Assembly: GCF_002487355.1 (NCBI RefSeq)
Contig: NZ_NTMG01000041.1
Span: 1 to 64,000, forward strand
Reading direction: 5' to 3'
From: Candidatus Methanoperedens sp. BLZ2
GTDB taxonomy: Archaea > Halobacteriota > Methanosarcinia > Methanosarcinales > Methanoperedenaceae
Length of the DNA: 64,000 nucleotides
This document shows, in pieces, positions 45,171 to 48,700 of this stretch. Both the position numbers and the translations under genes were made by a program. Each line of letters begins with the position of its first letter. Positions within the stretch are counted from its first letter, which is position 1. The notes below the pieces were generated by a model. The model was not told the origin of the DNA, searched no databases, and saw only the letters and a list, made by a program, of their open reading frames with translations.

Positions 45171-45400
45171 GTGAACTACCACAGCCTGAAGGCATTGTAG
45201 CTTCCTGCTTCAACGAATACCTGCCGGATTCTCCACAGGCTTGAAATCTTGCAGTTCGTGCAATACTATGTCTCGTTCCTTACTCAGTCTGGTTTGAAAC
45301 TATTTAACGCTATGCCTATCCCCGAAAATAGGTCAACACTCATCTTTTGGTGTTAGCGTTGTTTTACAGCTTCATTGAATTTATGCAGAAAGCGTTTAAT
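45171..45400 (-). mobile_element. Remnant of an IS605/IS1341 (TnpB) right end
   Basis: In minus-strand sense the segment ends with GAAGCAGGAAGCTACAATG, a GCC-TTCA-GGC hairpin and GTGGTAGTTCAC, the typical 3' terminus of archaeal TnpB elements where the gene end and its guide (omega/re) RNA scaffold coincide. In the weakly open frame just before it, ELQDFKPVENPAGIR resembles a decayed TnpB C-terminus. No transposase gene remains. Confidence 0.5.
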
Positions 45401-45430
45401 GGAGAACTCGAAACATGAAGACAAAGCGTC

Positions 45431-45485
45431 ATTACCCCTACATTCTGTATAATAACACAAAATTTAATAAATATGTAGGGGTAAT
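45431..45485 (+). promoter_or_regulatory. 13-bp perfect inverted repeat around the fic promoter
   Basis: ATTACCCCTACAT (45431-45443) and ATGTAGGGGTAAT (45473-45485) are exact reverse complements, 29 bases apart, enclosing an AT-rich TATA-like stretch (AATTTAATAAAT). The second arm ends nine bases before the fic ATG. It can act as a two-site operator or as an mRNA hairpin over the start. Confidence 0.7.
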
Positions 45486-45493
45486 ATAAGAAT

Positions 45494-46402
45494 ATGGCCG
45501 CAATTAGAAAAAAAACAGTGAAAAATCATACATATTATTATATCGAGCACAGCTTCCGTGAAGGAGACAGAGTGCACAAGAAAGAGAAGATCATTGGAAA
45601 AGCCCTCCCTTCGAATATCGAAGAATTGAAACAGGAATATATGGCAGAGTTCATGGCTGAAATTTATAAAGAAAAATGGCTGGATAGATTCGATGAAATA
45701 AAAGCAGCATTCTTAAAACAGGAAAAAATCACCCCAAAATCCGCGAGGGAAAAAGAAATTGAGACTTTCGCCATCAGGTTCACCTATGACACAAACCGGA
45801 TCGAAGGCTCAACCCTTACGCTCAGGGATACGGCAGACCTGCTTGAAAAAGGGATAACTTCAGGCAAAAGACCCATAAATGATGTAAAAGAGGCGCAGGC
45901 GCACAAAAACGCATTCTACGAAATGCTGGATTATAAAAAAGACCTCTCTCTGAATACTATATTGTATTTCCATAAAAAGTTGTTCGAAAGCACAAAAGCC
46001 GACATAGCCGGAATTATCAGGGCGCATCAGGTAGCTATCGCAGGAAGCAAATTCATACCGCCATTTCCTGCAGAAGTCTATCCGCTGCTCATGGAATTTT
46101 TCAAATGGTACGACAGAACCAAAGATAAAATGCATCCGGTACAACTCGCAGCGCTGATTCACCTCAAACTTGTAACCATCCATCCTTTCGCAGATGGGAA
46201 TGGAAGAATCAGCAGATTGATGATGAACTTTATTTTTCACAAAAATGATTTTCCAATGCTGAACATACCTTATGAAAAAAGAGCCGGTTATTACAGCGCT
46301 CTTGAAAGGTCTCAGACAAAAAAACAAGAGGATATATTCTTACAATGGTTTTTCAAACGATATTTGAAAGAATGCAGGTTTAAGCCTCTGGCTAATAAAT
46401 AA
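45494..46402 (+). CDS. Fic-family AMPylase-like protein
   Basis: 302 aa. The active-site motif HPFADGNGR (about 231-239) is complete. An upstream inhibitory helix, TNRIEGS near residue 100, fits the (S/T)xxxE(G/N) motif of class II Fic proteins, so it is self-inhibited. The first 45 residues (YYYIEHSFREGDRVHKKEKIIGK) form a beta region seen in many archaeal Fic proteins. It probably transfers AMP from ATP to a protein target. It stands in an accessory region with transposon and toxin remnants. Confidence 0.92.
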   Translation: MAAIRKKTVKNHTYYYIEHSFREGDRVHKKEKIIGKALPSNIEELKQEYMAEFMAEIYKEKWLDRFDEIKAAFLKQEKITPKSAREKEIETFAIRFTYDTNRIEGSTLTLRDTADLLEKGITSGKRPINDVKEAQAHKNAFYEMLDYKKDLSLNTILYFHKKLFESTKADIAGIIRAHQVAIAGSKFIPPFPAEVYPLLMEFFKWYDRTKDKMHPVQLAALIHLKLVTIHPFADGNGRISRLMMNFIFHKNDFPMLNIPYEKRAGYYSALERSQTKKQEDIFLQWFFKRYLKECRFKPLANK

Positions 46403-47823: not shown

Positions 47824-48097
47824 TCAGCGACTATTTATATCTAAATATCTGGCTATTCTTAAGACGAAATGATCACCTTTTTCAATCATTTCCTGAGCTT
47901 CATCTTCAGTTATCACAAAAGTGTACTCATAATCACCTAATTGTCTTTTTTCAAAAGCACGAGTAAGTTCTTTACTCATCTCCTTTTCAAAAATAGACTC
48001 TGGATACTGATGATTCATAATCTCCTGACATTAAAAGAATTTTAGCGCTCTCCAGGTATTTTCTTGACCTCGCCATTAGAGAATCAATCTCTTTCAT
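47824..48097 (-). pseudogene. Broken HEPN-domain toxin gene
   Basis: The 5' part reads MKEIDSLMARSRKYLESA...YESSVSRVYF, a typical HEPN start, and overlaps the MNT stop as ATGA. The frame then meets a stop; the C-terminal part continues in another frame (KEMSKELTRAFEKRQLGDYEYTF...HFVLRIARYL). The middle of the domain, including the RxxxxH site, is missing. So an internal deletion plus frameshift has disabled it. Confidence 0.7.
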
Positions 48098-48414
48098 GCA
48101 GTTATGCCTTCTTTATGTATGTTTATTAACAGTGGACTTTTTACGGCCGAATAGTTCTTTTCAGATACGGGATATACTGATATTAAAGCATTATATTTCA
48201 TTTGAAGGTCTGTTATTATATTTATCATGCGGTCTATTTCCTTTCCAGGATTAACATCTCCTTCAAGCAATATTGCAAGATCAATGTCCGAATGTTCTTT
48301 TTGATCGCCTCGTGCCCAAGAACCATAAAGAATAATATTTTTTAATCGTTTTCCATAGAGATTTTGGACTTTTGCTTTGAATTCTTCGATTATTAGTTTG
48401 ATATTCTCTTGCAT
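48094..48414 (-). CDS. MNT-type minimal nucleotidyltransferase (antitoxin of HEPN/MNT pair)
   Basis: 106 aa from ATG 48414. The signature GSWARGDQKEHSDIDLAILL has the GSx10DxD metal-binding motif of the DNA pol beta superfamily. MNT proteins AMPylate and silence their HEPN partner. Upstream frame up to 48558 runs through a transposon-end hairpin and is not coding. The partner HEPN gene is broken, so this MNT may be a survivor. Confidence 0.87.
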   Translation of the reverse strand: MQENIKLIIEEFKAKVQNLYGKRLKNIILYGSWARGDQKEHSDIDLAILLEGDVNPGKEIDRMINIITDLQMKYNALISVYPVSEKNYSAVKSPLLINIHKEGITA

Positions 48415-48529
48415 GATTTTATAATTGGTCGTGAATGATTTAATGTTAACTCTTATTAGCCACTTCTGATTTACTTGTCTTTTGGATAAATAATTAAAAT
48501 TTTTTTTCTTATTCTGCAAAGCTCCAACC

Positions 48530-48700
48530 TTCTCACCCCGGAATAAATTCCGGGGCATCCATGCCTTCGGCTTCGGATTCTGTAGAGAAAGTCAACGACC
48601 CCCGAATTCGGCGGGCATCAGGTTGATGCTCATGGATTTTGAATTCCCGTCAGTTTGTTTTTTCTCAATATATTGATTCAGGCGCATGTTTGCTTAATGA
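48530..48700 (-). mobile_element. Second probable TnpB-element right-end remnant
   Basis: Minus-strand sense: GGCATGGATGCCCCGGAATT and its continuation give a perfect 9-bp hairpin (ATTCCGGGG/CCCCGGAAT at 48536-48555) followed by TGAGAAGG; a GCATCA/TGATGC hairpin lies at 48615-48629. The layout GATGC-hairpin-TGA(G/C) matches the element end at 51905. No transposase gene is left. Confidence 0.4.

Follow-up and report, generated by a model that had tools for sequence, protein, structure and literature searches.

A conserved pair of promoter half-sites before an archaeal class II fic gene, a probable operator of Fic autorepression through an N-terminal domain

Described systems and the Methanoperedens locus

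Class II accounts for about 80% of Fic proteins, and next to nothing is known of the control of this class (PMC9755527). The closest described system is CccR of Yersinia pseudotuberculosis, a class II Fic protein with a C-terminal HTH for which negative autoregulation was shown; its operator, AGATAATCAT-N26-ATGATAATCT, places 10-bp inverted half-sites with a 26-bp spacer around its own promoter (PMC9755527). Fic-HTH fusions of the SO_4266/SoFic type were proposed earlier as regulators of fic (PMC2686095). For a Fic family protein of Methanoperedens, we found no paper in the literature searched, which was mostly outside subscription journals.

We analyzed a stretch of 64,000 nucleotides from Candidatus Methanoperedens sp. 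BLZ2 (the window), in which a fic gene is preceded by an inverted repeat (Table 1). The nearest named relative of the encoded protein is from Candidatus Methanoperedens (90% identity). The Fic/Fido family motif HPFx[D/E]GNGRxxR is present as HPFADGNGRISR, with only small changes among orthologues. Inhibition is predicted from TNRIEG, which follows the class II pattern (S/T)xxxE(G/N) and shares a chain with the Fic motif, N-terminal of it. The AlphaFold2 model (pLDDT 92) has N-terminal strands and a helix followed by a FICD-like Fic core (E 4e-15).

Table 1. Features of the fic locus, in window coordinates
Feature	Position	Strand	Basis
Apparent relic like the C-terminus of type I restriction HsdS (FIEFMQKAFNGELET, stop)	45371..45418	+	resemblance to HsdS ends at L004 and L008
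Distal half-site (left arm), ATTACCCCTACAT	45431..45443	+	exact inverted repeat; kept in 16/16 close orthologues
TATA-like box TTTAATAA, with A-rich BRE-like bases upstream	45463..45470	+	read from sequence
Proximal half-site (right arm), ATGTAGGGGTAAT, on the ATG side of the TATA-like box	45473..45485	+	inverted repeat; co-varies with distal arm
fic, class II Fic protein, 302 aa	45494..46402	+	PF02661, E 4.6e-21; FICD-like fold
N-terminal domain (N-domain), proposed DNA-reading module	45494..45730	+	AlphaFold2 model; domain-operator association
Class II inhibitory motif TNRIEG, residues 100-105	45791..45808	+	sequence; invariant in 16 orthologues
Fic active-site motif HPFADGNGRISR, residues 230-241	46181..46216	+	sequence; PF02661 match; orthologue alignment

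Similarly to CccR, the window locus has a single-gene class II Fic with an inhibitory motif and two promoter-flanking half-sites, here conserved with the gene; autorepression is what we propose here. Unlike CccR with its C-terminal HTH, the Fic core of the window protein ends without an HTH, and the candidate reader of the DNA is a non-HTH-like N-terminal domain of three strands. The promoter is of the archaeal TATA type rather than −35/−10, and we saw no sign of secretion for the window Fic, while CccR is a secreted effector. A search for a fused HTH or winged helix gave only Fic in Pfam and no C-terminal HTH in the model; therefore, the protein is not filed among Fic-HTH proteins, though the description that it works like one stands. 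Both designs join Fic to a DNA-binding module (a candidate one here), but the module, the protein end that carries it and the operator words are different. Type II toxin-antitoxin operons, Phd-Doc among them, also combine a Fic-fold gene with palindromic operator sites at the promoter. In those operons, however, a separate antitoxin binds DNA, whereas the window Fic has no conserved partner and carries the inhibitory motif in its own chain.

The repeat, its promoter and its conservation

The earlier note on this DNA described a perfect 13-bp inverted repeat around a TATA-like stretch, and re-measurement of the coordinates and of complementarity bore this out. The two arms are 13 nt each and 100% complementary, with a 29-nt spacer. 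The right arm ends 8 nt before the fic ATG (45494), so that the ATG begins at the ninth base past the arm. Roughly estimated at uniform base composition, the chance that 2 kb contain a perfect inverted repeat of 13 bp with arms spaced by 50 nt or less is ~0.0015. We found no further copy of an arm in the 64-kb window with two mismatches allowed, and a pattern search of the 3.7-Mb genome returned the arm pair once; a dispersed element, the finding that would have spoken against the note's reading, was thus looked for genome-wide and not seen. Single arms with at most one mismatch had 10 matches in the genome vs 31 for the reversed control pattern, i.e., the arms were the rarer.

We consider it likely that the repeat is the fic operator and that Fic represses its own gene through the N-domain. 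The half-sites flank the TATA-like box, persist with this Fic family, co-vary, and switch with the type of the N-domain. Each N-domain of Fic, which is probably dimeric, would take one half-site; one bound half-site would lie upstream of BRE/TATA and the other between TATA and the transcription start, where bound Fic would block TBP/TFB and RNA polymerase. Transcription of fic would then occur only while free Fic is low. Such control at the DNA would replace a partner antitoxin and would be added to the built-in class II inhibitory helix.

A TTTATAA-like element sits at the equivalent place in relatives, and transcription is expected to start at about 45489-45494. With normal archaeal TATA spacing the transcript would begin at or just before the ATG; hence neither arm would be in the mRNA. 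This bears on the possibility that the arms form an mRNA hairpin covering the fic start codon, as might be suggested in the window's species by how near to the ATG they lie and by their full complementarity. However, the conserved box between the arms puts the left arm upstream of the expected start, the arms are mismatched in relatives, and several clades have direct repeats at that place. We regard the hairpin as very improbable.

Besides the window's own fic, we found 17 close orthologues, two of them partial; the full-length set, the window included, had 16 members. When aligned on the ATG, all 16 had both arms, one TTACCCCTACA-like and one TGTAGGG[GA][TC]AA-like, with a centre-to-centre distance of 41 or 42 bp. 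Between the second arm and the ATG lay 8 to 17 nt, and the perfect 13-bp match was seen in just the window and G017. The conserved feature is, therefore, two half-sites, TTACCCCTACA and TGTAGGG[GA][TC]AA, with 41-42 bp between centres. The presence of both arms in 16/16 full-length close orthologues is the decisive evidence for the claim that the repeat was unlikely by chance; close relatives having fic have the repeat too, and the note's reading was not refuted. The two-site operator, one of three options in the note, is now strongly supported; the other two, mRNA hairpin and element ends, are disfavoured. Going beyond that note, we conclude that the N-terminal domain probably reads the site and that the site is not necessarily perfect or inverted.

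In 60 relatives, a strict pattern of the pair matched 13 places in 13 genomes (three places matched also in the reverse reading), and 12 of the places were before fic; the reversed control pattern had zero matches in the same relatives. More broadly, both window-type arms were present at 57 Fics, 54 of which, from several archaeal phyla, had them at 40-42 bp. The arm variants change together: ACCCTTACAT occurs with ATGTAAGGGTA, TATACCTACA with TGTAGGTATA, and TACGGCTACAT with ATGTAGCCGTA. Complementary cells numbered 590 of 741 compared to a mean of 560 (sd 5.6, maximum 580) in 2000 shuffles; because relatedness inflates such a test, we take the co-variation as support, not as proof.

The remaining place is L339 (G016:C56:33681-33726), where a window-type operator is an orphan, with fic gone, and adjoins a type I restriction HsdR-like ORF. 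At L186, L190, L193, and L196 the operator is retained while fic is broken past the N-domain by deletions or frameshifts. The short N-domain ORFs at these four loci were considered as stand-alone repressors; they are actually broken fic genes.

The absence of an adjacent partner antitoxin held as well: no neighbour family was common to more than 4 of 21 fic loci, the most widely shared one (4/21) being HsdS-like. The lack of a conserved adjacent antitoxin gene at the 21 loci speaks against a type II toxin-antitoxin module. Control of a self-inhibited Fic through the DNA site, which the note offered as a possibility, is supported; the protein carries both TNRIEG and HPFADGNGRISR. In L004 and L008, fic is preceded by HsdS-like ORFs, and the window has the apparent HsdS-like relic just upstream of the operator. 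Since neighbours vary by locus, Fic and its operator seem to travel together, in some cases to type I restriction loci. The window also contains, at 48094-48558 (−), an ORF like a minimal nucleotidyltransferase (GSWARGDQKEHSDIDLAI), MntA-like by eye.

The N-domain and operator words of other Fic subfamilies

In the AlphaFold2 model, the N-domain has antiparallel strands at residues 2-9, 12-23, and 26-35, then a long helix at 42-79; modelled alone, it has the same fold as in the whole protein. Its ~40-45 residues follow the pattern I-K-K...G..YYYL..S.R.G.KV.K..KYLG, which is common in archaeal Fics. A Pfam scan, Foldseek with the domain alone, and a profile search against PDB chains found no relatives in Pfam and PDB. 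The order strand-strand-strand-helix agrees with the AP2 / Tn916-integrase arm-binding type, to which Foldseek and the profile search gave no significant match, and we do not assign the domain to that type. As the domain is without a fold relative, the argument for DNA binding comes from association and not from the fold.

We surveyed the domain by a scan of named genomes and by profile searches in four archaeal groups. N-domain matches, some of them in non-Fic proteins, were counted by genome: 166 of 279 sampled genomes had one in the phylum to which the Nanoarchaeota locus L091 belongs, 77 of 196 in the group of the Micrarchaeota locus L060, 30 of 194 in that of the Methanomassiliicoccales locus L070, and 50 of 295 in the window's own phylum. 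The window's own genome has a 57-residue ORF (L326, G000:C79) that is the N-domain alone, with no duplicated promoter word evident.

Strong inverted repeats (an ungapped inverted-repeat score of at least 9 on −80..−1) were found at 32 of 65 N-domain Fics, taken as 70% identity representatives, compared to 11 of 101 domain-less Fics and 9 of 300 neighbouring ORFs. The first fraction is an undercount because some clades use direct repeats; for example, direct repeats ~30 bp apart are at the promoters of L064, L076, L206, and L237. Spacing differs by clade (26-44 bp for inverted and 29-31 bp for direct repeats), as does orientation. A general rule that both half-sites share one face of the helix was considered and dropped, given the 41-42 bp in the window's clade and the ranges elsewhere.

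In more distant N-domain Fics, the same position of the promoter is taken by unrelated arm words, among others AGTTACCAATACAT, AGTTATACCTAC, AGTTATCACTGA, TGTAATGGCA, GGTGACCACA, and AGTTATCCCCACA; one related fic carries the operator GGTGACCACA/TGTGGTCACC. Differing words were observed even inside one genome, at the G348 paralogues L050/L231, L237, and L239. For some N-domain Fics, e.g., of the L308 type, we did not find a clear repeat. The N-domain Fics L308, L310-L312, and L314, without a clear promoter repeat, have a degenerate active site (RPFESGNGLVGR).

A second archaeal Fic class (L020-L028, L030, and L078) has an HTH-like C-terminus, no N-domain, and conserved ATCGGAT / CCGATACCGATA repeats around the start; in the Fic-HTH-type L021-L028, conserved ATCGGAT/CCGATA repeats are at the promoter. 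This class is probably another autoregulated Fic, closer to CccR.

The N-domain on other proteins

The N-domain also heads IS1634 transposases (NF033559) and PheS (NF003210), and at the loci L353, L351, L349, and L239 it is carried by a GlgE-like enzyme, a FAD-dependent oxidoreductase, a PEP-utilising mobile-domain protein, and an MntA-like nucleotidyltransferase. Several of these genes have promoter words of their own. The word GTGGTAATTAA is duplicated at N-domain-PheS promoters (significant in 4 of 6 tested), where it is present in 1-5 copies, the last one between TATA and the ATG. The FAD oxidoreductase gene has TTGTGGTGACTA twice and the PEP-utiliser gene GTGGACACAA twice, each at its own promoter; the GlgE-like gene has the promoter words TGTAGTCATA/TATGACTACA. 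A duplicated promoter word was not found for the MntA-like N-domain gene.

A natural swap gives the strongest support for autorepression. The N-domain of the Fic at L206 is 64-71% identical to the N-domain of N-domain-PheS and no other sampled Fic N-domain exceeds 49% identity to it; the remainder of L206 is Fic. The L206 promoter has TTTGTGGTAATTAA in two copies; this Fic and N-domain-PheS have in common both the type of N-domain and the promoter word GTGGTAATTAA. The word was absent from 131 other Fic promoters (0/131) and from PheS genes without the N-domain (0/28); three PheS that had been flagged as domain-bearing were weak false positives. As read from the sequences, the promoter word tracks the domain rather than the gene.

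The same evidence weighs on the possibility that a separate regulator, with its gene elsewhere in the genome, uses the repeat as its operator, the N-domain doing other work such as target or oligomer contact. DNA binding by Fic is something we infer, for a domain with no known fold relative, and one operator outlives its fic (L339), all of which would suit a separate regulator. Conversely, the paralogous clades each own a word, even within G348, so that every word would require a dedicated regulator of its own; the word accompanies the N-domain into PheS; and the pair has one target per genome, with no linked regulator gene found. We hold a separate regulator to be unlikely and retain autorepression by Fic as the preferred reading.

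IS1634-family transposases resemble the window locus in having the N-domain and TGTAGGG-type words, and differ in that the catalytic part is a DDE transposase; an operator role is weaker there. In two IS1634 elements, TGTAG[GA]G[TC]CTAA or a close variant recurs close to the element ends and ahead of the transposase gene, and at the promoter alone the duplication of the word was without significance. These words are a hint that the operator sites descend from transposon-end recognition sites. They would also be the reason to take the arms of the window for mobile-element ends. Nothing but the promoter lies between the arms, however, and the pair is single-copy per genome; a mere chance match is opposed by fixed spacing and co-variation across phyla that exceed chance. 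Either origin, element ends or chance, is hardly credible.

We lean, by a modest degree, towards a wider reading in which the N-domain is a portable, previously unnamed archaeal module of self-regulation: a host gene (Fic, PheS, GlgE-like, FAD oxidoreductase, or PEP-utiliser) would have matching promoter half-sites and be autorepressed, with a possible common ancestry with the DNA-end-recognising part of IS1634. Archaeal class II Fics gain an operator together with a candidate domain for reading it and numerous natural variants of the site. If the N-domain binds DNA, it would be a plug-in autorepression module fitted by evolution to unrelated enzymes, a tRNA synthetase included, and the pairing of N-domain type with DNA word would be a ready-made recognition code.

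An N-domain tRNA synthetase may act as repressor of the operon that encodes it. In genomes of the L091 phylum, L342-L348 and L350 are phenylalanyl-tRNA synthetase alpha subunits with the N-domain and repeated GTGGTAATTAA at the promoter. PheS was assigned by family scan for L342, L345, L347, L348, and L350, and also for L344, at the same place, and is presumed from N-domain and length for L343 and L346. The ~550-aa N-domain ORFs of L342-L348 had been considered as transposases like L214 and L226; the family scans gave PheS instead. A pheT-like ORF is located downstream of PheS in L344, L347, and L348.
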